Of a DNA stretch of 64,000 nt, positions 21,356 through 36,057 are shown piece by piece; positions within the stretch are counted from its first letter, which is position 1, and each line of letters begins with the position of its first letter. Location of the stretch: the NCBI GenBank assembly GCA_950295325.1, contig OX485803.1, forward strand, positions 23,748,001 to 23,812,000, written 5' to 3'. The notes below the pieces were generated by a model. That model ran no database searches and was not told where the DNA came from. It saw nothing but the letters and a program-made list of their open reading frames with translations. The DNA is from Polytrichum commune. Lineage: Eukaryota > Streptophyta > Polytrichopsida > Polytrichales > Polytrichaceae. The translations under genes were made by a program, and so were the position numbers.

Positions 21356-21703
21356 GGGCCACTTCACATAGGAGCGTAGGTTGCGACCATGTCATTATTA
21401 GGGCCCTCAATTATAAGGGCATCTCATCCAAAGGCCATATTGGTTGTTTAATTGACACGATTTGCCATGATTTGCCATGATTTTCGTCAAGCCTATCTTT
21501 TGGAAGTGGGCCTAATATAAATGCCTCACAAGACAATATTTATAGTCTGCCATGTAGACATTTCATCCATGTTAACGTCTTTGGGCCCATACACCTTCAC
21601 CTTCTAATATGAAGTGAACTTGGATGCTCTTGGCCTTTTCGACCAACGAGAGATCTTAGAATGGAGTGGTCACGGGCATTCAGCCTTGTGTGTGAAGTGG
21701 CCC
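21356..21703. mobile_element. Tourist-like MITE, copy 2 (348 bp), abutting the MULE
   Basis: It starts GGGCCACTTCACATAGGAG and ends GTGTGAAGTGGCCC, with TAA at 21353-21355 and at 21704-21706. Its right TAA and last base lie inside the 9-bp target duplication of the adjacent MULE (21703-21711), so the MULE inserted exactly at the edge of this older MITE. Confidence 0.85.
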
Positions 21704-21711
21704 TAAATTCA
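21703..21711. repeat. MULE target site duplication, left copy
   Basis: CTAAATTCA. The identical nonamer occurs at 36049-36057 at the other end of the element. Nine bases is the standard length for Mutator-like transposons. Confidence 0.9.
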
Positions 21712-22085
21712 CCCTAACATTACCCAACCCAATGGAGGTAATTGCGGCCCACTTACCGATGTGTGCCAGAGGCGTGCAGGTCAGAAGCTCCGAAGCAGCC
21801 GGGACCCGCCCTCGCCCGCAACCCGCCTTCCGCCGGCCCGCTCCTCACTGACGCCGGGATGCTGCCAGCTTGGCACTGCAGGCGCCACCCACCCCCCGAG
21901 GCCACGGTGGAGCGCCACGCTGTTAGCTCCCCGCGACCCCTCACCGTCGAGGCCCCATCATGCATCCCGCCAGCATGTTACGGGCACATGCCATGTGTTT
22001 CCATCATGGCCAGATGGAAACCATGCCCGGCATCACCCATCATCACCCATCATGGCCAGATGGACTTCATGGCCGGCATCTTCCC
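21712..22085 (+). repeat. MULE left terminal inverted repeat (uninterrupted)
   Basis: A GC-rich block, in contrast to its AT-rich surroundings. Apart from a few substitutions it is the reverse complement of 36048-36005 plus 32710-32385. It retains the single TAA target (complement of 'cggTAAgtgg', at about 21757-21759) where the right repeat was split, so it serves as the pre-insertion allele. ORFs on both strands of this block are mirrored in the right repeat and are not genes. Confidence 0.9.
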
Positions 22086-22485
22086 ACCTCGGCGAAGGGA
22101 TCTCCCTCTTCCATTTCGACGTCTAGGGGTTACGGTTTCTGTTGCGGCTAGGCAGCGATGGCTGCTCTTTGTTTGTAACCTGCACGATACTTTCGATGAC
22201 GCAGTGGAGTGCAACACTTCGATTGCGGCGCTGATGCAGGCGCGGGATTGCAGGCAGGCTTAGGATCAGGACCTCCCTTTCGAAGATGCTGGTTTAGGGT
22301 CAAGGTAAGTGACTGACCTCTTCATGTTTGGTTGCAAATGTCCAATCTTCTTTGGGTAATTGTTTCTTGCACACCTTGGATCATTCCCACGAACTATTAA
22401 GATGGCAACAATGATGCATTCTTTAGGGTATTTCTTGCAACTGTCTATTGAAGACATCACCTCCTTGCACTACAGTCTTCTCTTG

Positions 22486-22683
22486 AAACTTGGATTGTTG
22501 CGTGCACTTAAAACTTGGGTTGTTGCGTGCACTTTAAACTTGGATTGTTGCCTGCACTTAAAGCTTGGAGTGTTTGTTGCACTTAAAACTCGGATTGTTG
22601 CCTGCACCTAAAACTCGGATTGTTGCCTGCACCTAAAACTTGTATTGTTCCCTACCTTAAAACTTGGATTGTTGCTGCACTGC
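22486..22683 (+). repeat. 25-bp minisatellite, about eight units
   Basis: Units vary around 'aaacttggattgttgcgtgc' plus 'actta'. It lies about 0.8 kb inside the left MULE end. A different 24-bp array lies at a comparable depth from the right end. Confidence 0.85.
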
Positions 22684-23330
22684 AAGCTCTTCTGAAGGGC
22701 CTGAAACTTGATTCGCCAACAAGGTGGCTTCATTTTAAGGTATTTCATTGCAACACTCTATTCATGGTTCCTTCATTTTTTTTTACTGTAACATGATGAC
22801 TAGATGCCCTACAATTTTGTCTCATCTGTGTGGGTTTAGGGTATTCCTATCTCCTTCTTTGTGGGTTTAGGCTAATTCTTTGCAGGAGTCCATTCAATCT
22901 TCCCTCAACTTTTATTGTAACCTAATTACCTCCTTGCACTATAGTCTTGTCTTCTTCCTGCCTTAAAACTTGGATTGTTGCCGCACTGCAAGCTCTTCTG
23001 AAGGGCCTCAGTCTTGATTCGCCAACAGGGTGGCTTCATTTTAAGGTATTTCATTGCAACACTCTATTCATGGTTCCTTCCTTTTTTTTACTGTAACATG
23101 ATGACTAGATGCCCTACAATTTTGTCTCATCTGTGTGGGTTTAGGGTATTCTTATCTCCTTCTTTGTGGGTTTAGGCTAATTCTAGGCAGGAGTCCATTC
23201 AATCTTCCCCCAACTTTTATTGTAACCTAATTACCTCCTTGCACTATAGTTTTGTCTTCTTCCTGCCTTAAAACTTGGATTGTTGCCGCACTGTAAGCTC
23301 TTTTGAAGGGCCCGAGTCTTGTTCATGTTT
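22650..23330 (+). repeat. About 310-bp tandem duplication in MULE subterminal DNA
   Basis: Two nearly complete units and a third partial unit are very similar. The shared order is 'aaaacttggattgttg', 'ctgcaagctcttctgaaggg', 'gattcgccaac', the homopolymer T run, 'gatgactagatgccctacaa' and 'tgtgggttta'. A more diverged partial copy begins near 23740. Confidence 0.8.
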
Positions 23331-24519
23331 GGTTGAATTAAGGTGGAATGAACTCTAAAGTGGGCGTTCTTTGCTAAGTACTTGCAGGCAATACATTATG
23401 ATCTTCCCAATTGTAGCGTAATAAATCACATCCATTTCCCAGGGGCATTTGACGATTCCCTGACTGTGTGTGTGAGTGCGAGGTTACGTGTGACAATTCG
23501 TTGGTTACAACTCACAATTAGTGACTCTGAAACTATGAATATTGTTGAAAGAATTAGGGGTTGGACAATTGTGTCATGTCCTCCCTTGTATATTATGATT
23601 TGTATCTCAATGGATTTCACAAAATCAGTCACACCCTGTGCCTGCTTTGTAATAATATCTCTGAATTTTTACACTGGTTGCTAGTTTCCAAACGCAAAAG
23701 CTGACTTTGTGATTTGAAACAGCCTATTTAGTGCTCTTCTGTTGGGCCGTTGAACCATTGATTCGCCAAGGGGTGGCTTCATTTTAAGGTATTTCATTGC
23801 AGTAGTCTATTCATGCTCCCCTCCTTTTTTTACTATAACATAATGATTAGATGCTCTACAGTTTTGTCTCATTATTTGGATTACTCTTCTCAACCTTCCC
23901 TCCTATTTTATTGTAACATAATCTTGGCTTACACCAAAGTCCACTTCCTGGCTGGTTTACAACATTCAAAAACTAAAGCCTGATTGAATGTTTCATCATT
24001 TTCTGCAATAGTCTTTGATACCTTCCCTCCCCTTTCATTGTGGCATAATCCTTACTTGCCCTACAGTCCACTTCCTGCTTGGTTTAGGGTTAAATTGCTT
24101 AGAAATCTGAATATAGCTTCCACGACTTTTAATTCTTGACCTGTAACTCTTGACTTGTAATTTTTGTACTCTCTCAGGAAGGCGAGGGCTTCAACTCCAG
24201 CACTTCAGAAACGACCCCGGATTTTGGCCAACGCGCGTCGCCGTCACACGACCACAACGCACAAGGTCGTTACAACAGGTCACCGCCATCTCACAATCCT
24301 GCACGCTTGTAACATAGAGGCAAGTTCCGCTTGATTCACGGCCTTTTTTTCCCCGTTTTCCTCCTCACTCATGGGAGGCCACACACTGCTCTTATGTTTC
24401 GTGCTTTGTGTTTTTTGAGGTCCATGTGGCCTACTCACTTCAGCTCGTTCAATTCCTCTAGTTTCAGACATTAGGGTTTAGGGTGTGTAGGTGGAAAAGC
24501 TTGCAGAGAGTGTCTCAGT

Positions 24520-27500
24520 ATGGCGGTTGGTGCATGGCCTTCTCTGCAGGGCTTCGGCGACCTGCATCAGAGCACCTTGCGCCATATTCCAAGTGCCGCA
24601 AACCCTAATCCCTCCTTTTTCCTTTCTGGGCCTCTCAGTGCGTTGCTCTCGGCCATAGAATCACAGTGCCGTTTGCAGGATATGGACGACGAGGTGGTGT
24701 ACTACGTGAACATGGATTCCGTAGGGTGGGTGGAGCAGCATGTTAGGCGGCATGTCTACATCGAGCTCAAGTTGGAGTGTACTCGCAACCGCGTTCGGAA
24801 TGAACACAGGGCCAGGGATGATTGGCTCTGCCTCTATTGCAGAGGATCCTTTCCAAGTAAGCTGTGGCTGACAAATCACCGTTGTGGAGGTTGCCCCCAT
24901 GGACCAGTGAACTCTAGAGGGTTAAAGTGGCAACTCCCTGTGTATCCAAATTTGAAGACAGCAAAACAGGGGAAGGATCTTAAGATGGCTTTGCAACGTG
25001 GTGATGTGTGGGAAAACCTGCAAGACGAAGAGGTTGGTTTACTCTGAACCCAGAGCTCCTAGATGTCACGAAACCCCCCCCCGGAGCGCGCGTGCAGTCG
25101 CGTTGGTTTATGGAGGCGACGTTGGAGACCTTGGCGGCCCAACCTGCACCACGCGCAGATTCCACCCCTCAACAATCGCGGCCGCCCACACGGAGCAAAG
25201 CGGCAGCCCCTCCCAGGCAAGAATCTGCCCCTCGCGTGCCCCCTCCCCCAGCCTATGTGGACATTCCGGATGACACAAGCGATGAGGCTCCCGCGCCCCC
25301 TCCCCCTTCGCGGCCTCACAAGCATAGGTATGCTGAAATGGACGGCAGCCACTGCCCCTCCTTTTCGGCACGACAATGGGGACCCAAGCATCGAAACACG
25401 GTGCTGGTGGGGATCAACGCCCACCAAACCCTTCACGATGTGCACAACCCTCAGCTGGTGAGTTTCGGGTACCTCCACCCCACCCCATTCGGGTGACACC
25501 GATACAGAGTCGCAACCCGTTTGCAGAGAATGTTGCCATTGTTCCGCTTCCCGTGGAGGTGCCACGCGGAGAGCCTGCGCCGCCCCGCCCTGCTTCACCC
25601 TCTTCACATTCGCATGTCCAGCCCGATGCGCCACCACCTGCTTCACCCTCTTCGCAGCCGCATGGCCAGCCCGATGCGCCAACGGCACCCGTTACACCTG
25701 TTACGCCTGAGACCCCAAGAGAGGAGCAGGATTTGGCGGGAGGCATTCGAAAGGAGCGACAAACATTCTACCTTAGAGCCGCAAGTGCAGCACGCGGGAC
25801 CGTGACTATGGACGCCCCAAAACCAGCCTTGAGGCCCTCAATCCAACCCCCTCCCTTGTTTTATTTGATTTCGTGTGGATTGATGGAGTTTGATTTAGAG
25901 AGAGGCAAATATGAAGACTTTGAGGCTCAGATTCAGGAATGGAAATCCGCACGGAATTTCATGGACAGGTTGTTTGCCGCAAACGGGAAATTTGGGACTG
26001 CATCACATCAGGTAACGTAAAAATGTTATTTCAATGCCTCCGTAACCTCCTCGAAATTCTTCGAAGTTCTTTGAAATTTTGTATATTCTGCCCCATCACG
26101 TAACATGCTTAAATAGGTGTTGCTGAATCCGTAACATGCTGTCGCCGTAACAACACCTGTATTTGTTGGATGCAGGCCAAATCAAGAGTTACACCGCCAA
26201 TCCAACAGGCTGTGGTGGGGGTCGTGAACAAGATAGATGAAGCCGCCACCGCTGTGGACGTTGAGATCCAGGCTCTAATCACTTACGTGAAGCACATCTT
26301 CGTCATGCGTGATGTGGTGAATGAACGCAAGGAATGGGAGGACAACCGCGAAAAAAAGATTGGCGAAGCCATTGCCAAAGCGATGAAACAATGGGATGAC
26401 GAGCATTACCCGCGCTTGTTGCAAGCAACTTGGGGATGGCATCCTTTCTATTCATCTTTCCTTGTCAATCCTCTTTGCGTGAACTTCATTCCCACATACC
26501 CTTTGTCTCATTCACTTGTGGAAGGTTGGGATGTCAGTGAGGTCGTATTGCAACAAACCCAAGTGGAGCGTGTGTACCCGGTGCCTTGGTCCATCCTTCT
26601 GTTTCGATGTTACCTTAAGTTTCACAGCCTCTTGCCGCCTGTCCTGTTACACCCTCAGAATGGCCTCACTGGAGCCAACATCACGAAATGACTGAAGATA
26701 ACGCAAGAATCTGATGGAGAAGGCCCGCGTACGTGGCAACAGGCCACGTCTTACTTGAAAGAAGAAGGCTTCGTGTTGTATGCGGGGGCCTGGCCAGTGG
26801 ACTCGCAACAACAGTGGGTTGCTGGTGTAGAAGGTGCTTGGAGGGATTTGAGAAATCCCAGTCGTCAATGGTGGGCAGACTTGCGGCATTGGTGCAACAC
26901 AACTCAGTTTAGAGCTGTTCAAGACATGGCGAAACATGACAAGCAGATGTGGATGCAAGTATGGGTGATTCGGGATCCCCCCAGTGCACCTGCAAAATCA
27001 CTTGCACGTTACGAACGGTGGTTGCAATTTCGGGAGGACATGGACATTGGATATGTCCTTGCCAACCCAGGTAAGTATGGTTGAATTTCCCGTAACACGA
27101 TGCATTCCCCGTAACAAGTCCGTAACGGATGGGTCGACTATAACATGGCATGTGTGTATTGTTTCGCAGATGTTATGGTCCCTCCTCCGGAACCCACCGA
27201 GTTTTTGTACGACCTGAGGGCCGTTGCAGAAAATGTCAGCAGGGAACGTTGTGTGCAGTGGGATGTTCATCCTCCAAAAGCAGTCCAACGCGATGTGGAT
27301 GTTCCTGTTCGTGAGGTCGAGGTTACAAATGCCAGCAACTCCGAGGACGTTTGCAAATTAAACCACAGGTTGCGGAGGTTGCGCCTCCTCTAGTGGAACC
27401 TGAATCTGGAGTGCACGTTACGGACTCCCCCTCTACAAATCCAGCCGTGAATGTGGAACCTGCATGGCACATACCTATGACTCAAGAGAGGTCGTTGCAG

Positions 27501-27746
27501 GACTTGCCAAGTCAATTGGATTTGGACTGGCCAGACTCGGTGACACCTACTCCCCCGCCGACCCATGCCGCAACTCGCAATTTGGGGGAGGAACTTAAAG
27601 CAGTGGGGTCATCTCAGATTGTCGACACGGCCGTAGTATTGCCCGTTGACGCATTTGTGGAAGTATCTCAGATTGCACAAGAGGCTGCGACGGATGCCAG
27701 TGGCAGTTGCCCAGAGCGGGTGGAGGACCACTTACATGCAATGTAA
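24520..27746 (+). pseudogene. MULE accessory gene: C2HC zinc finger plus proline-rich protein, interrupted
   Basis: The gene runs towards the transposase gene, as mudrB does towards mudrA in MuDR, but I see no resemblance to MURB itself. The first segment (ATG 24520) has a zinc finger at residues 104-125: C104-x2-C107-x3-F111-x5-L117-x2-H120-x4-C125, the C2H2 spacing with a final Cys. A +1 shift near 25035 leads into a Pro/Ala/Arg-rich segment. Likely introns are 25458-25528, 26012-26175 (CAG/GTAACG to TGCAG) and 27071-27169 (GTAAGT to TTCGCAG); their phases match. Residues after 25800 are Trp- and charge-rich and look like a folded domain of unknown type. A TGA at 26689-26691 and a frame change near 27370 break the frame unless splicing avoids them. 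The function is unknown. Confidence 0.6.
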
Positions 27747-27749
27747 TCT

Positions 27750-28370
27750 AGACTACATGTTAGATACGCGTTACAAGTTTAATATCGCCCGTGCATTGAT
27801 GGACTTGCAGGGAAACCATATTTGGGTTTGTAATACTGATAGAGAGACCGCAAACAATAGACTCCATTCAGCCTGGAAACTGTTGTCGTGACTGTTCAGA
27901 CTCTGTAACCTATGGAAACATTTGTAATCTGTAACAAGTGAAACATTTTCATGATTTGTAATTTGGCATTGGTTTTGGTCTTGGTTTATGGCTATGCACT
28001 ACTAGATACGCGCTAGTTACATGCTAGTTAGGGTTAGCTTTGTACGTAACCATGCGCAAGTTAGACACATGTTACTGATTTACACAGTCCCGCCCAACAA
28101 CAAGTTTTTGGTTAACATGACTGGAGGACTGTTGGTGTTGGTACAAGTGCTATGTGCAATGGCAAGATTTGAAGACCCGCGGGACATATTGAACACTAGA
28201 AAGAATACCCACAAAAATAAGAAATCTATCATTCATTTCAAAACATCAAAAATGTATCATTCATTTCAAAACGTCAAAATTGTATCATCCATTTCAAAAC
28301 TTCAAAAATCTATCATGCATTTCATAACGTCATTAGCAATGTAACATGACAGAGTCCCTATAATGCAAAC
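27750..28370. other. Region between the convergent MULE genes
   Basis: AT-rich 3' flanking DNA of both genes. It contains a four-unit repeat at about 28222-28335 of roughly 30 bp ('tatcattcatttcaaaac' plus a variable part). No gene is visible. Confidence 0.6.
28222..28335. repeat. 30-bp tandem repeat, four units
   Basis: Units contain 'catttcaaaac.tcaaaa' followed by 'tatcat.c'. The array sits between the 3' ends of the two convergent MULE genes. Confidence 0.8.
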
Positions 28371-28374
28371 TAGG

Positions 28375-28705
28375 GAGCCCAACTTGGCCTATACACCTTC
28401 ACTGGTCGTTGGTATGCCAACAACGGTCCGTGTGGAGCAGGTGTGACGGCAGGTGGTGGGGTTATCAGCTGCCGGACCGCCTGAGCATGTCGTCGCCTCA
28501 GTCGGGAGCTCTGCGCTGGTAATAGTGGGCCAGACAACTGAAGCTTCCGGAACATGGAGTCAGCAGTGGAGGCGGGAAGATTGGTTGTGGGCATGCTCAT
28601 CGGCAACACGCTGAGGACTAGTTGGCGGAGTGTAGAATTCCTCGTCGCTGGAGATGTCGTGCTCTGGCCCAATGGCATGAGGGCATCTGCAAAACCATTT
28701 CCAAA
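28375..28705 (-). other. Possible extra 3' exon of the MULE transposase gene
   Basis: On the minus strand an acceptor-like 'ggttttgcag' is followed by two overlapping open frames. One encodes an acidic, Pro/Ser-rich peptide with an 'SSDEEF' patch; the other is a longer Pro/Ser-rich peptide. Either could be a terminal exon if the stop at 28912 is spliced out. This is speculative. Confidence 0.25.
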
Positions 28706-28911
28706 CAGTTGCACTTATGCGAGCTATGTGAAGGGGCTCCATTGGGAGAGTGAAACAACATAGAGACGCTGCAAGGAGGTCACGCCCTTTATATAGGTAA
28801 TGGTGGAAGTTACTCACGCACGTGGGAAAGGCTCACACATGCGATGAGAGCCATAACATGGGCCACTCCTTGGTTACAAGAACATGTTACAAACCGTGGT
28901 TGAAAATCTCT

Positions 28912-31708
28912 CTATCTATGCCGCTCCAGGAAGTCCTTCCTTCGCCTCAGAGACATGTTACAGCCATCATCGATGGGGCTGAAATGCAGCTCCACTTGCG
29001 ATGGCTCCACCAAGCCATGTTTCATTTGCACCAACAGGGTTTGTTGTTTTCCCCGGACGTTGTGGAAGTCGGCTAGAAGATGTTTTAGCAAGAAAGTATT
29101 GCCTCTGGCCGCATCCATGAATTCAGTTGCTAGGTTTCGGACACTGGTTTCCAGATCGTGCACACCTGGGGCGATGCGATCGCCATTAGTGCCATGGTGA
29201 CCCGTTGCGGGAGTGGAAGATGGTTCCGTATCCTGACAATCCTCTGGGAAATGTACGACTGGATCCAACATGTTGGCACGTCCTCCCTCACATGTGCCTG
29301 CAAGGGATCCACAATAACGTGTAATTGTTCCTTCAGCAAGTTCCGGATGGAGTATCATCAGGACTTTAATATGATGTTTACATATGTTCCCCTTCAGCGC
29401 CCACACGCAATCACAACAACCCCACTCACAATCTGGGCTGTAGACAGAGAACAATTTAGTTGGGTTGGTCTTCGATGTTACCAATGCTGGACCGTCGTCT
29501 GTAATGGGGAGGGTGACACAACTATCAGGAATTTCTCTGGCTTTGAGCATTGCATTTATAACAAATTACTCTTGTTTCAAGTTTGGGACGAACCCGTGTT
29601 GTTTCCACATTGCCTGGTACCAATAATGGGAGAGAATTTCCTCTGTCAACTCGTATATGACCCAATCCAAGCGACATCCATGCGTTCTACCTTTTGATGC
29701 ACGCAAGGTGGCTTTAAGGTTAGAGTGGTAGCTTTTAATTGCTGCATTTGTGTCCTGTTCTATATATGGCAAGTTATGATGTCCAACAACCCACATATGA
29801 GTCTTGTCTGCCCATTGTTTGTCAAAGTAAGCCCAGAAATTGCTCACAATGGGAAAGCTATCTCTAAGAGCATTCATTTGTCGAATGGCCCAAGGCCCCA
29901 TTGTATCTCCTGGGGGGCACTTTGTGTCATACATAATACGACCCAATCCCTTTAGCACTCCAGCCCGTATTGCATGGTCTTTGATTTTGGCTACCGCTTG
30001 CTTCAACCATGCACGACGAACATGCCACAAGCACAGGAATACTTTAACTCCAGGCCACACGGACTATAGCCCTCCAATCTCAGCTTGCGCACAATCTGTG
30101 ATGAACGCATTCGGGGCCCAATCATGTTGTAGGGACGCCAACTTTTGTGCGAGTGCCTTCATCAATGGCTCAAGATCAGGTTGCTTGGAACTAGAAGTAA
30201 TAATGTACGCCACGGGCACTCCATTCAGCCAGTTATCAAAGACCATCAAGGTGTACAATGGAAACTGCAACGGAGCAAAAAATTGGCATGTTACGTCAAT
30301 GGAGAAATATAACCCAAAAAAACCACAAGTGTTGCAACAAACAAGTTAGCAGTGTAATATGCTGACAATGAGTCCATAGTAACAACAAACCTTGTTCTCA
30401 TTAGTTGCAAATGTGGCGTCAATGGAGACGGTTTTTTTGTACCCGTGCTTCAGCATCATTTCCGCTTGCCAAGATGTTTGGATGCCAATTGTGAATAGAA
30501 TGTTGTTACGTGTAATAGCTCCCCGAACATGTACTTCTGACTCCTTGTAGTATAACACGAGAGCGGGATGTTCATGCATCCACATGCGCACAGATTTTGT
30601 GTCATTGTTGTTACGTTTGTATGTTTCTATTGCTAGGCGCCCTGTGACGTTACAGATGTCTTGCTCCGAAATGAAAAGGTCTTTGGTGAGCTTCTTCTCC
30701 CGCTCGCAGACTTCCATGAAGCATTTTCTATGTTTTCCCATTATTTGGGGATAGACAAACCCAAATGCAGATGACACATGATGAATTCCTGGACTTGCTC
30801 CGAGAGATGGCTGGAGAATCTGCTCTTATGGCCAATCTTTGTAGACCCATGGCAAAATATCCCATTTTGGTTCACATGTAACATCTGATGGTATGTTATT
30901 TCTGCAACTTCGGGCTCCAGGTACAATTGTTTGACAACAAATCCACACTGGCACTCCCTCCGTTGACATGATCCACGTATCCTCGCTGATGTGCGTGGCC
31001 CTGTGTGACCTTTTCCGTTTGGAACATATTTGCCCTTGACGTTAAGTTTTCGTTTCTTCTGGTACATGTCCTTCGTAACCACTAGTATGTGCGAGGCATT
31101 GTCATTTGGCCCATACTGACAATGAAACCTGGTAGTAGGGCATGGAGTCAGAAACATGTGATGGGAGTGCAATCCACATAAAACTTGGAACTTATCATTT
31201 TCAAATTTGTAACATGAGATCATGGACAATGGAATTCAGAATACATGTTTCAAACACACCTCATGACAGCGGAATAGTTGTTCCAACAGGGGAACGTAAG
31301 TTTCCCCTGTTGGTTCGAAGGAGTGCCCTGGCAAACAAACTTGCAGGGTCCATCTACGCGAGCCTCCTCACCTTTCACGAAATCAGGCACTCTTACCCAT
31401 GGTATGTAAGCTACCGAAATGCTCCCTTGAGTCCTGGGATCGTCCCTCCTCCCTTTCGCGCGGATCTGGGTTGCCCAAGTGAGATCCTTGTGCATGAAAG
31501 TGCCTTGCTCGGGTGTCTGAACTAAACCACGGAGCCACTCAAGCTCCACCTTGTGCACCTCCTGGTATGTGGACGCATACGAAGGCTCTAGGCGGTTTGG
31601 CATACGAGGTGGCCTTTGGGAGGCAACATGCTCATGTGCAAGAAGCTGTGCGTCGGTATGCAATGCAGTAGAAGACTCAACAACGGCGTCACAAACATAA
31701 TCACCCAT
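28912..31708 (-). pseudogene. MULE transposase (MULE DDE domain plus SWIM zinc finger), degenerate
   Basis: Translation from ATG 31708 gives an N-terminal segment to 31260, an intron of uncertain boundaries, then a Cys/His-bearing DNA-binding-like segment (about 31195-30780). The DDE part follows: 'SIDATF' (first Asp at 30418-30420), an intron 30390-30265 (GTTTGT to GTTGCAG, phase 0), 'FITDCAQAE' (second Asp at 30094-30096), a C-x2-H motif in 'FLCLWHVRRAW', and 'DTNAAIKSYH' at about 29748-29720, where the usual family Glu is Lys. A SWIM finger (C-x-C...C-x-H, 'CDC' and 'ICKHH') lies at about 29420-29365. Breaks are a one-base frameshift near 30780, an in-frame TAG at 30066-30064 and an in-frame TAA at 29568-29566. 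The frame is otherwise continuous from 30264 to the TGA at 28912. Confidence 0.85.
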
Positions 31709-32385
31709 TGAAGCCCTTTATCTGTAACCCAAACTTTCACACACTTGCTCCAAATCTGACTGAAATTCGTTTTTACCTCTTTATACCTCTATGGAAGACG
31801 CTGAATTGCGGCTCAAATGCGACCCCTCCAATAATTGAAGAACTGTGAAACCAGATCTGGAACTAAGAAACCAGATCTGTGAGCGCACGGCAGTGTTTGT
31901 GGAAAGAACGCAGGGGCTGGTCTTCATCCCTTACTTCTTCCCTACTCGCCCTAAACCCACCAGGAAGTGGAGGACACTATAGTGCACATACTGATTAGAT
32001 TTGTGTAGAATGCGGAGGGAGGGTTGAATGGACTGTTGCACCGAAAGATGAAATCCGAAACCAAAGAATGTTGCGATCCGAAACCACATAATGATGAAAT
32101 CCGAAACCAAAGAATGCTGCGATCCGAAACCAAAGAATGATCCAAAGTGTGGTTTAGGTTTTCAGGTTTTCAAAAGATTGTGGTGCAACATTCGTGTTGA
32201 GATCCTAACCCTACCCGCAATCCCTGCATCATTGTCGCAATCCCTATCCATGCTTCAATGTCGCAATCGAAGTGTTGTATTCCATTGCGGCAGAGATCCT
32301 CACTTGCAAGTTACAAAGAAAGAGCCGCCATATCGGTGGGAGGAGGTGTTTGAAATTCAAAATGTTCAAAATCAGGTGGGAAGAT
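31709..32385. other. MULE right subterminal region and transposase leader
   Basis: This stretch holds the promoter and leader side of the transposase gene. Weak homology to the left end is visible around 32215-32385, for example 'caacacttcgattgcg' in antisense. A 24-bp minisatellite lies at 32046-32141. Confidence 0.6.
32046..32141. repeat. 24-bp minisatellite near the right MULE end
   Basis: Five units of alternating 'gatgaaatccgaaaccaaag' and 'gttgcgatccgaaaccaaag' type. The core 'atccgaaacca' occurs five times. Its sequence is unrelated to the 25-bp array at the left end. Confidence 0.85.
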
Positions 32386-32710
32386 GCCGGCCATGAAGTC
32401 CATCTGGCCATGATGGGTGATGATGGGTGATGCCGGGCATGGTTTCCATCTGGCCATGATGGAAACACATGGCATGTGCCCGTAACATGCTGGCGGGATG
32501 CATGATGGGGCCTCGACGGTGAGGGGTCGCGGGGAGCTAACAGCGTGGCGCTCCACCGTGGCCTCGGGGGGTGGGTGGCGCCTGCAGTGCCAAGCTGGCA
32601 GCATCCCGGCGTCAGTGAGGAGCGGGCCGGTGGAAGGCGGGTTGCAGGCGAGGGCGGGTCCCGGCTGCTTCGGAGCTTCTGACCTGCACGCCTCTAGCAC
32701 ACATCGGTAA
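32385..32710 (-). repeat. MULE right terminal inverted repeat, inner part
   Basis: Reverse complement of about 21757-22085 with only a few mismatches (for example 'cctctagcac' against 'cctctggcac'). It is separated from its outer 44 bp (36005-36048) by the Harbinger insertion. Confidence 0.9.
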
Positions 32711-32789
32711 GAGCATCCCCACCAGACCGGGCACCGCCCTGGGCATAATTGCACCGGTGGCACCCCGGGCATAGTGTGGGTTTACCCGA

Positions 32790-32950
32790 CATATTGTTGG
32801 AGCCCACTAGTTCAAGTACATGCCCCTCTTCGAGGCCGGCCCCCGCCCGGTATTACCCCCTTGCCCGATTCCATTAGCCTTGCCCGATGTCTTGCCCGGA
32901 TACCGATTCCGTACCCGATGTGTTGCCCGATTCCCTACCCGATCCCTTTC
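32790..32950. repeat. Subterminal CCCGAT motif cluster of the nested Harbinger element
   Basis: 'tgcccgat' and 'tacccgat' variants occur about six times within 100 bp, close to the left terminal repeat. Related 'acccga' copies occur near the right end at about 35846 and 35861. Such clusters often bind element-encoded proteins. Confidence 0.6.
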
Positions 32951-32972
32951 GGTTCTCCGCCCCGGAAATATA

Positions 32973-33602
32973 CTAAAATCCCTCGTTAACTAATTCACTG
33001 ATTAACTAATTCATCTCCATTGCTCGTGTGCTTCCAAAGCCAATAGTGGACTTGCAATGCTTCTACCGTGGGTTACTAGCAGCTTAGGCAGAAAATACAC
33101 AATGAGTTTTCTCAAGAACTCTTGAAATAGGAGTTCAAAGACCTTGGGTGTTGCCTACTCAAGTTAGCAACTATCATCTTATCTAAATTCCCTACTAACT
33201 TTCGAAAACTAATAATTCCATTCACACCAAAGAGTTATTTAATAAGAAACTAGACAACCAATGATGCATGACATTTAGCATCACTAAGCTTTAATGTAGG
33301 TGGACCAACATCAACCATGTCCATTCTACACTAATAACCCTAATTCTCATTAAGTTCCCAATGATAAGTGCAGTTTTCCAAGTAGTACCCAAGTGAAAAA
33401 AAATGTATTTTAGATGTACATAACATAGATGAAAGGAATTTTAGCATTAACTTACCTTTATAATATGATACAACGGAGATTCTAAATGTCGCATTATCGA
33501 GCGTTGTACTCATATAAAAGAAGGAGTTTTGAGATTAAAAAGTTGGGTCTTGCAAAAAATGTGTCGTAATATTGAGGGTGTCATATTAACGAGGTTCGAC
33601 TG
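32973..33602. mobile_element. Pogo/Tc1-mariner-like TIR fragment
   Basis: The right end reads, on the minus strand, CAGTCGAACCTCGTTAAT and is bordered by TA (33603-33604). The left end, about 32971-33010, reads TA then a degenerate 'ccctcgttaactaattc'. This end style, a CAGT...CCTCGTTAA start beside TA, is familiar from pogo/Tigger-type elements. The interior shows no transposase. The left boundary is approximate. Confidence 0.5.
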
Positions 33603-33604
33603 TA

Positions 33605-34549
33605 GAACCCTGGTCTCTCCTTTCTTTTGTGTGCAGTGGTAGGATAAGGGCCGTACGTTGGGTTTGCACTACTAGGGTCCACATCCAAAAACTCTCCAGA
33701 ATGTAGCGATCCTTATTAGTGGAGAGCCAAGAATGTCGCGATCTCTGTACAGAGTGTACTCGGACCACATACTTTATACCTCCGAAGTGGTAATTTGTGG
33801 CGTCGCAATAATTTGGGACATAGTATAATAAATGATGATGCCCATGAGTTCGGGGCACGGTCTGGTAAAGGAAGGGAAAGGAAAGGAAAGAGTGTCCAAT
33901 ACATATAAGTGGGGATAACTGCATACACAAAAAACCTTAAAATAATATGAACTCAAATATTCGACACTGTTAGTTGATTCGACACCGAAGGCCACTCTGA
34001 AGACCCCGACGCAGTGATCAGGGAGAGTTTTAGGCATGATCGGTTGAGATCCTAATGTTTGCAAGTCCAACCGGTTACATCATGTTGACATCCTTAGGGT
34101 TCTCCTTCGCTAAACTGGGGTATATTCCTCTCTATACAGTCCTCCAGAAGATATGACTTTGTTAGATTTTTTCTTCTCGTCTCCAATTATTTCTTCAACT
34201 CGAGACAGTGGTTTCAGAAGCTTGAGCGAGTTGGCAAGTGTGTGAGCATGCACACAAATTGAAGCGTTACAATCTCAGCATAAGACAGGACTCTGCCAAT
34301 GATTACATGGTCCCATAACCGTCGTCAAAACCCCAAGTTGCAGGTATAAAGGAAAAAATTCATGGAGCTCCAGGGAGCTGGAGCATGGCGTGGTTTGTGT
34401 TTGTGTTTGAGTTTGAGTTTGTTGACGCCGCGTTTGAAGAGACGTTGCATAACATTGCACATTGGAATCCAATTAAGACAAATGAATTGCAGACATAAAT
34501 CAGGAATACAAATACATAATTATGAGCCTAACTCTAACAAATACATAAT
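33605..34549. other. Interior of nested Harbinger element without a gene
   Basis: Short ORFs only (up to 114 aa, minus, 33586-33930) with no DDE or other motif. In complete relatives this half would be expected to carry the transposase. Confidence 0.5.
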
Positions 34550-35785
34550 TCAGATTCTTGAGCCCTGCAACCATGTGGATGGAGGGGAGATTTGCCTAGG
34601 TACAAACTGTTCCCGAATTGCAGGGGTCCAAAACTGGCCAAAGAGTTCATGAGGATCAGCAGAGAGTCGTCGACGTTGTGATGGGGGAGGGTTAATTGCG
34701 AAGTCATTAGGTTGAGAATCTAGGATGGTGGTTGTATCCTCATCACGATCCGAAGCTGGTTGGCCGAAGTCATTCCCAAAAGCATTTAGATCAGCTACCC
34801 TTCTCCTATCTGCAAACAAGTCGGAGGAATCATCCTCACAATTATCATCAGCATCATCTTCTTCATTCAAATCTCCTCTAAACCCTAACCCTTGTGTTGG
34901 TACAGGTGCAGGTGCAACAGGCGTGTTGGAGTAGACTCCAAACCGAGGAGGAGCAGGCTCGTTGGAGGCAGCAACTTCGGCAGCAACCTGTGCCTTGAGC
35001 TTTGCAAGCTCTTGGGTCCTGCGGAGGTGGAGCCACTGTCTAGCAAGGTCACAGGTAATGTTCTTATCCTCTACTGTAAACAAGCTAAAAGCATTTTGCT
35101 GAGCAATTTGCTCAGCTTTCTTCAATGTAGCTGCAGCAAAGTCAGTTGTAGCTTTTGCATTAGCGCGCAAAGCTAGCTCCTTCCCCTTACTTTGTGCATG
35201 CTCGTTTTTTGCCGACTTAGGACCCTGTGGTATTGTCTGTGCAGGTGGCGATTCAGTGGAGGGAGCCTGGCCATTCGGAGAAAGCAGATCGCGACGATCA
35301 ACAGGTAGCCCCTCTCTTGAAGGCGGATCAAACCCTCCACCCTTTCGCTTGCCCATAAATATTGCCGCAAACCTAGGATAGCTCTTTAACAACAACCAGC
35401 AATGGTTTAGAACAAATGCCTTCCCACATTTTTGCTTGTACAAGCTCATAGCATCTAATACAAAATCATCCTCACTCTTCCCACTCTCATTCAAATCTCT
35501 CACTGACTGATAGCAACCACTGAACTTGGCAACAGATTGTTTGATGTCAGACCATTTTGTCTCTAGAGACCTAGCAGGACGATCAGCTCCTCCCTCGGGT
35601 TTGTGTCTAGCATAGTGCGTTGCTACATTGATCCAAAATTGTGCATTCTTTTGCCCTATCCCTCTCCTGGCATGGGTGGAAGTATGCATAAAACTTCGGC
35701 AACATTGTTCTTCCTCCTCCGAGCAAAAGTTCCTGCCCTTCTTGGTCTTCCCACCCGTTGCAGGCACACCCCCCCTTCCTGACAT
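34550..35785 (-). CDS. Harbinger ORF1-type Myb/SANT-like protein with NAM-associated C-terminal region, intact
   Basis: A single uninterrupted exon of 411 codons with ATG at 35785, about 200 bp inside the right terminal repeat. Residues about 18-100 form a Myb/trihelix-like module with an acidic 'SEEEE' start, spaced Trp residues ('FWINVA', 'KWSDIKQ') and a 'CWLLLKSYPRF' end. A basic Gly/Pro linker follows, then an alpha-helical Ala/Lys-rich segment near residues 195-280 with the 'GPKSAK' signature seen in plant proteins annotated as NAM-associated or GST-T3-like. The tail is acidic, then Pro/Arg-rich. In PIF/Harbinger elements this class of protein helps bring the transposase to DNA and to the nucleus. 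Its open frame contrasts with the decayed genes around it. Confidence 0.8.
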   Translation of the reverse strand: MSGRGGVPATGGKTKKGRNFCSEEEEQCCRSFMHTSTHARRGIGQKNAQFWINVATHYARHKPEGGADRPARSLETKWSDIKQSVAKFSGCYQSVRDLNESGKSEDDFVLDAMSLYKQKCGKAFVLNHCWLLLKSYPRFAAIFMGKRKGGGFDPPSREGLPVDRRDLLSPNGQAPSTESPPAQTIPQGPKSAKNEHAQSKGKELALRANAKATTDFAAATLKKAEQIAQQNAFSLFTVEDKNITCDLARQWLHLRRTQELAKLKAQVAAEVAASNEPAPPRFGVYSNTPVAPAPVPTQGLGFRGDLNEEDDADDNCEDDSSDLFADRRRVADLNAFGNDFGQPASDRDEDTTTILDSQPNDFAINPPPSQRRRLSADPHELFGQFWTPAIREQFVPRQISPPSTWLQGSRI

Positions 35786-36004
35786 GGTGGAATAAGTCCA
35801 AAGTTGGGCTAACTGCCGGATGGCGTTGGCGGATAGAACACGGTACCCGAGGCCAATATACCCGAAGAGCTCCTCCCAAATGCCCGGTCCAGCACCCTTT
35901 ATGGCGTTAGCGTCGACTGGTGGACGTTAGAACTTGGCGTCATGGGCACCGGATTTCCAGGAGTGCCGTTCAACTGACTTATACCTCTGCTGGTGGGGAC
36001 GCTC

Positions 36005-36048
36005 TAAGTGGGCCGCAATTACCTCCATTGGGTTGGGTAATGTTAGGG
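36005..36048 (-). repeat. MULE right terminal inverted repeat, outer 44 bp
   Basis: It pairs with 21712-21755 and ends GGGTAATGTTAGGG. The first three bases (TAA, 36005-36007) double as the right target duplication of the nested Harbinger element. Confidence 0.9.
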
Positions 36049-36057
36049 CTAAATTCA
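36049..36057. repeat. MULE target site duplication, right copy
   Basis: CTAAATTCA, identical to 21703-21711. Confidence 0.9.

Follow-up and report, generated by a model that had tools for sequence, protein, structure and literature searches.

We examined a 64,000-nt stretch of the Polytrichum commune genome (contig OX485803.1, positions 23,748,001 to 23,812,000; hereafter the window), which carries a decayed Mutator-like element (MULE). In this element a transposase gene on the minus strand and a second, accessory gene on the plus strand are transcribed towards each other. The explanation that we favour, with moderate confidence, is that the accessory gene is a long-standing second MULE gene that encodes a helper protein and is no passive cargo. 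That it is encoded by the element and selected for the function of the element is very probable. We read it as an undescribed family of convergent MULE partners that may act like MURB of maize MuDR or VANC of the Arabidopsis VANDAL elements. The gene has been retained in dozens of element copies, and several of these are intact, as would be expected if mobility or continued activity of the element depended on such a partner.

The accessory gene and its association with the transposase gene

The accessory gene runs on the plus strand from 24520 to about 27746 and consists of three exons. The first (24520–26011, with its ATG at 24520) encodes a C2HC finger of the form CX2CX12HX4C at 24823–24894, the sequence LPVYPN and a Pro/Ala-rich linker, and ends in GKF....HQ at the donor CAG/GTAACG (slash, splice site). 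It is followed by an intron of 164 nt in phase 0 (26012–26175), placed, like the second, by splice patterns. Exon 2 (26176–27070, 895 nt) encodes WGWHPFY, PVPWS, a Trp-rich part and DIGYVL, and a phase 1 intron of 99 nt (27071–27169) separates it from exon 3 (27170–27746; DVMVPPPE...EVSQIAQEA), whose end is approximate and which is less conserved. In the window copy the gene is broken: the reading frame shifts in exons 1 and 3, and exon 2 contains one TGA.

Splice-site patterns were scored on 20 loci, the window and 19 relatives. The HQ end of exon 1 with its CAG/GTA donor is present in all 20, the exon 2 donor CCAG/GT in 19, the exon 3 acceptor CAG/AT in 18 and the exon 2 acceptor CAG/G in 15. 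Both ends of exon 2 could be placed in 14 loci; the exon measures 892 or 895 nt in 12 of these, and the other two carry a frame-changing indel. The initial annotation, made from the letters alone, had proposed a C2HC finger, a linker and a Trp-rich part spread over introns with matching phases. This outline holds, with the Trp-rich WGWHP domain lying in exon 2. It had also called for the recovery of intact copies, and five loci, chosen for having all three accessory exons open, splice to stop-free proteins of 943 (L002), 943 (L003), 1028 (L004), 978 (L006) and 942 (L018) amino acids, L002 and L003 being near-identical.

The transposase gene on the opposite strand was identified by its PF10551 domain, which scores above the cut-off at C1:23778019-23778270 (window 30019–30270, minus strand, with one stop inside). 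The match is weak when the single broken window piece is scanned alone (E 0.0017). The corresponding exon of L003 also scores above the cut-off (E 9.8e-9), so that a MULE transposase domain is present and the convergent arrangement first noticed in the window is confirmed.

All comparisons were made within this one genome, and the match lists are lower bounds. A plastid-type rbcL on contig C8 marks the genome as that of a plant, and we read the gene as moss-like; the seven large contigs may represent n = 7. Searches with the 130-aa C-terminal part of window exon 2 and with the finger exon returned at least 85 and at least 89 rows, respectively. For the pairing count, 87 of 113 listed transposase rows were used, the 26 omitted being second fragments of listed loci. 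These rows were chosen manually, the 162 accessory places were hand-picked from the genome-wide searches, and at least one locus (C7:40.488 Mb) was counted twice. A convergent accessory gene lies within 15 kb of 48 of the 56 close transposase rows (at least 65% identity to a young copy) and of 21 of the 31 more distant ones. The total is 69 of 87, and no row has solely a non-convergent accessory gene. When places were assigned at random in 200 runs, 0.245 of the 87 rows were paired on average and never more than 3. Absence of the gene from other copies had been named beforehand as evidence against a partner. This was not found: besides the 48 close rows paired within 15 kb, seven of the remaining eight have a convergent accessory gene 16–40 kb away, perhaps separated by nested insertions, and the eighth has none among the accessory places listed.

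An earlier count, superseded by the one above, had covered 66 of the at least 85 accessory rows with a PF10551 list that is itself a lower bound. At least 40 of these had a PF10551 match within 15 kb, 39 convergent and one not, and the single non-convergent pair adjoins a nested young element. The 26 of 66 accessory places with no PF10551 match within 15 kb among the matches listed could be taken to mean that an old element merely happens to lie beside an unrelated repeat family. Such a random association is contradicted by the convergent pairing of 69 of 87 rows against the random mean of 0.245, and by elements with both terminal inverted repeats (TIRs) and target site duplications (TSDs) that enclose both genes; we consider it practically negligible. 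On the same pairing figures a nested unrelated repeat was rejected.

Three young copies of the element, on C1, C3 and C5, have main blocks that are 98.7–99.7% identical. Those on C1 and C5 retain their two termini and are flanked by TSDs of 9 bp; that on C3 is rearranged. The C5 copy has inserted into an accessory gene belonging to an older relative. All three young copies have an open DDE exon, and accessory exon 1 forms an open frame in two of them, L002 and L003, which are also among the loci that splice to intact proteins.

Selection on the two genes was compared with the ratio of non-synonymous to synonymous substitution (dN/dS), using the simple method of Nei and Gojobori (NG86) on 20 loci. 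These give 190 non-independent pairs, of which only those with dS 0.1–1.2 were used. Median dN/dS values for the accessory gene were 0.15 (50 pairs) in the finger part, 0.32 (103 pairs) towards the end of exon 1, 0.27 (86 pairs) in exon 2 with the Trp-rich domain and 0.44 (61 pairs) in exon 3. Two transposase exons gave medians of 0.11 and 0.12 (178 and 173 pairs). Purifying selection acts on the accessory gene across the element family. Chance open reading frames (ORFs) were rejected as an explanation, since a wrong-frame control on two regions gave medians of 1.37 and 1.49 against 0.15–0.44 in frame. Accessory and transposase distances are correlated (Mantel r 0.83; 0/2000 permutations; 18 loci).

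Recombined halves, a second lineage and standalone homologues

The elements at L017 (C4) and L019 (C3) are both bounded by two TIRs and flanked by TSDs (9 and 10 bp). They are 97.0% identical over 4883 nt of the transposase half and right TIR and 98.4% identical over 253 nt at the left TIR end, yet their accessory genes reach just 66% identity in alignment. Trees of 17 loci place the accessory gene of L017 among those of L003, L020 and L025, and the L017 transposase beside that of L019. The accessory and transposase trees have 9 of 14 splits in common, and all six strongly supported conflicts concern the placement of L017. The L017 element is thus a natural recombinant of the halves of two lineages, and the transposase and accessory halves of the element are exchangeable. 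The accessory gene of L017 has a broken frame in exon 1.

Searches with the L026, L028 and L029 proteins led to additional homologues. A second MULE lineage (L027 and L028) has elements of about 12.0–12.1 kb, transposase pieces 31–47% identical to L003, 9-bp TSDs, and 80-bp TIRs (GGCGGACGCTAAAGTACC) that are unrelated to those of the first lineage. It also bears a convergent accessory homologue, 18–19% identical to window exon 2. Another group that has a transposase consists of L030 and L032. In a 13-row alignment of exon 2, 17 columns are invariant, including the W, W and P of WGW[H/S]P, where L029 has WHWSP.

Two homologues with long open exons, L026 (C3:22.246 Mb) and L029 (C2:66.469 Mb), occur as single copies and stand alone; both lie on the minus strand, at L026:3293-5893 and L029:5129-8108. 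No transposase match (E 1e-3) was found in 14.5 kb around L026 or in 8.5 kb around L029, of which about 5 kb is downstream. They are 27% (L026) and 17% (L029) identical to window exon 2, and the most similar other sequences among the genomic matches listed reach 29% and 27% identity to them. We regard them as candidates for domesticated or ancestral genes.

Such homologues could speak for a transduplicated host gene, a captured fragment whose ORFs travel as passive cargo, and gene capture by MULEs is documented (PMC6446971). A match to a host gene had been named at the outset as evidence against an element-encoded partner. The two standalone homologues found are distant, and purifying selection acts on the accessory gene inside the element, so that recent transduplicated cargo, of the Pack-MULE kind or otherwise, is contradicted. 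Conserved splice sites and the presence of the gene in two MULE lineages also speak against it. A capture long ago, predating the separation of the lineages, is conceivable; as an account of the gene as it now stands, passive cargo is very improbable. Many convergent copies, purifying selection and the lack of a recent host-gene source support the proposal of the initial annotation that the gene encodes an undescribed, element-encoded partner protein.

Extent, termini and transposase gene of the window element

A single decayed MULE, whose right TIR is interrupted by a Harbinger-like insertion, occupies 21712–36048 of the window; it measures 11,040 bp once the insertion and one TAA are subtracted. 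The extent first given for it, 24520–31708, covers only the interval between the start codons of the two genes. TIRs that start with CCCTAACATTACCC at 21712 and 36048 form the ends of the element, and a perfect 9-bp TSD, CTAAATTCA, flanks it at 21703–21711 and 36049–36057. TSDs of 9–10 bp were found in 7 of 10 elements examined (window, C1, C5, L027, L028, L017 and L019). None was found in the rearranged C3 copy, in L042, where the left end was not captured, or in L043, where no end was found. MULE TSDs range from 8 to 11 bp (PMC6446971).

The left TIR (21712–22089, plus) starts with CCCTAACATTACCCAACCC and has the same terminus in other copies. Its outer part matches 36005–36055 over 51 bp at 96%, and its inner part (21752–22089, 338 bp) is an inverted match to 32374–32711 at 99.1%. 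Long TIRs are also present in the L017 element (263 bp, identical). The right TIR (minus) is divided into an inner part, 32374–32710, and an outer part, 36008–36048. Between them lies the Harbinger-like insertion (32711–36004, 3294 bp), recognised by a TAA duplicated at 32708–32710 and 36005–36007 and by its own inverted ends, GAGCATCCCCACCAG...CTGGTGGGGACGCTC. This insertion contains an open frame of 458 aa (34553–35926, minus) with a weak NAM-associated match below the cut-off (E 3.4e-5). The non-coding sequence of the element contains repeat arrays with units of 25, 305, 28 and 23 bp at 22503–24086, 28213–28324 and 32039–32153; the first of these regions holds the subterminal repeats, with 25-bp, 305-bp and weaker units in the repeat scan.

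The transposase gene has at least three exons, all with approximate limits, and a probable C-terminal exon. Exon 1 (31708–31265, minus; inner limit approximate) has its ATG at 31708. The second (31121–30388) contains SIDATF with the first presumed catalytic Asp, and a PF21056 match below the cut-off (E 0.0012). The third (30267–28912), recognised by PF10551 and motifs, includes the second presumed catalytic Asp, the Glu position and a SWIM-like finger. The probable C-terminal exon (28714–28370, limits approximate), which the initial annotation had not mentioned, ends in KVYRPSWAP, and a like ending is found in L003, L004 and L018. The catalytic and SWIM-like labels follow what we take to be the usual MULE pattern. 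The window protein keeps the presumed catalytic Asp residues and has a Lys where relatives have the presumed Glu of the DDE triad. We take the window copy to be dead because its transposase gene contains stops. With both genes broken, the near-identity of the inner parts of its TIRs could mean that a dead copy was recently mobilised in trans or that the TIRs underwent conversion.

Known accessory proteins of MULEs and the possible role of the partner

Additional ORFs named for MULEs are mudrB, mutB, vanB, vanC and the Abermu ORFR (PMC6446971, PMC9168764, PMC5735166, PMC10398659). Within the open-access literature searched, no earlier description of the present accessory protein was found.

The likeness to MuDR proposed in the initial annotation stands for the layout, a second gene opposite in transcription to the MULE transposase (69 of 87 rows), and goes no further. 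MURB is a protein of about 200 aa for which no architecture of finger and Trp-rich part is known to us. It is thus far smaller than the 942–1028 aa of the accessory protein, and this difference in size, compared by description only, argues against the two being the same protein. MURB has been reported to be crucial for insertion (PMC9168764), and mudrB to encode a protein of unknown function that is apparently required for integration (PMC6446971).

The Abermu ORFR of barley and other plants, also compared by description only, is nearest in layout. In type II elements it is an extra ORF on the opposite strand between the transposase and the 3' TIR, without similarity to MURB according to PMC9168764. 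Its Ka/Ks is below 1, with both Ka and Ks above those of ORF1 (PMC9168764), so that it too evolves faster than the transposase. Its function is described as not clear, and it differs from the case presented here in that Abermu forms with a transposase only occur in 17 plants (PMC9168764). In the yeast element Mutyl, mutB has the same orientation as the transposase (PMC6446971), whereas the accessory gene here is convergent.

VANB and VANC of VANDAL elements are likewise additional MULE-encoded proteins, compared here by description only. The elements described here have long TIRs, unlike VANDALs, and the accessory protein has a C2HC finger. The word zinc is absent from the main text of one description of VANC (PMC5735166). 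The targets of VANC are non-coding tandem repeats (PMC10398659, PMC5735166), and vanB is described as encoding a protein of unknown function (PMC6446971).

The helper protein that we favour would have about 940–1030 aa, with the C2HC finger in its N-terminal part followed by a flexible linker and the Trp-rich domain. The conserved single finger, the flexible linker and the large Trp-rich domain together suggest an adaptor that contacts DNA or chromatin. The finger may contact element DNA or a conserved partner, and the Trp-rich domain may bind the transposase or a host factor. The convergent layout and the maintenance of the gene alongside the transposase suggest a helper that would act in trans. 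No recognised enzyme domain was found in the accessory protein with Pfam. A MURB-like part in the transposition reaction, in integration or complex assembly, appears the most likely of the roles, with a VANC-like anti-silencing function next; a role in the reaction specifically is a serious candidate, though we stop short of calling it probable.

As an anti-silencing factor, the protein would bind the non-coding repeats of its own element and strip silent marks, so that the transposase is expressed. Tandem-repeat arrays do occur in non-coding parts of all seven elements scanned and differ between lineages, binding to them being predicted only. It would also fit that, for 141 of 153 pairs, accessory exon 2 has a higher uncorrected synonymous difference than the transposase exon. 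Some repeat arrays, on the other hand, fall in coding parts, and long TIRs of MULEs frequently hold repeats anyway. The finger is the best-conserved part of the protein, yet a part that binds its own element specifically should vary. A k-mer count for a VANC-like motif, covering one copy, returned repeat-unit words only, and no motif common to protein and element groups was established. We consider anti-silencing rather unlikely. Purifying selection does not tell it apart from a helper in transposition.

The reading of the accessory gene as a helper that the element needs has several further points against it. Eighteen of the 87 transposase rows (8 close, 10 distant) have no accessory gene within 15 kb. 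In the young copy L001 accessory exon 1 is split over two frames, and in the young copy L002 the second transposase exon has no single long open frame. At L042 and L043, which are 92–97% identical in aligned blocks, an accessory gene is present, partly broken, and no transposase was found at these loci; L042 has inverted repeats and one terminus. Such accessory-only loci also fit passive deletion derivatives. The authors of the Abermu study consider that ORFR may be unimportant for transposition (PMC9168764). Profile searches of the finger and of the 25800–27070 region, which the initial annotation had suggested, gave no Pfam match above the cut-off for the accessory exons of the window, L003, L004, L026, L028, L029 or L032. 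Below it, the best was DUF4187 in L029 (E 0.003); zf-C2H2_4 also stayed below it in L026 (E 0.0055) and in the window (E 0.42). The spacing CX2CX12HX4C fits the C2H2-type pattern, though in the window and L026 the finger does not reach the Pfam gathering score. A PDB profile search with the 13-row alignment gave nothing significant (two matches, E 0.31 and 0.69). AlphaFold models made without an alignment were unusable, with a mean predicted local distance difference test score of 38.9 for exon 2 of the window copy, in which the TGA was taken as Trp, and 44.4 for the finger region.

More tentatively, the C2HC finger and WGW[H/S]P domain may mark an old partner family that occurs in at least two MULE lineages whose TIRs are unrelated, can acquire other transposases when the two convergent halves recombine, and has given rise to at least two single-copy standalone offshoots, L026 and L029, which the host may have taken over. 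Such a family could be an independent second solution to the role of MURB or VANC. To our knowledge no domesticated MULE partner has been described so far, and the standalone relatives, if they are host genes, would be the first known to us.

MULEs are highly mutagenic in plants, and the role of their second proteins is poorly known. With a partner in dozens of copies, naturally recombining halves and three near-identical young copies, what a MULE needs beyond its transposase becomes directly testable in this moss.

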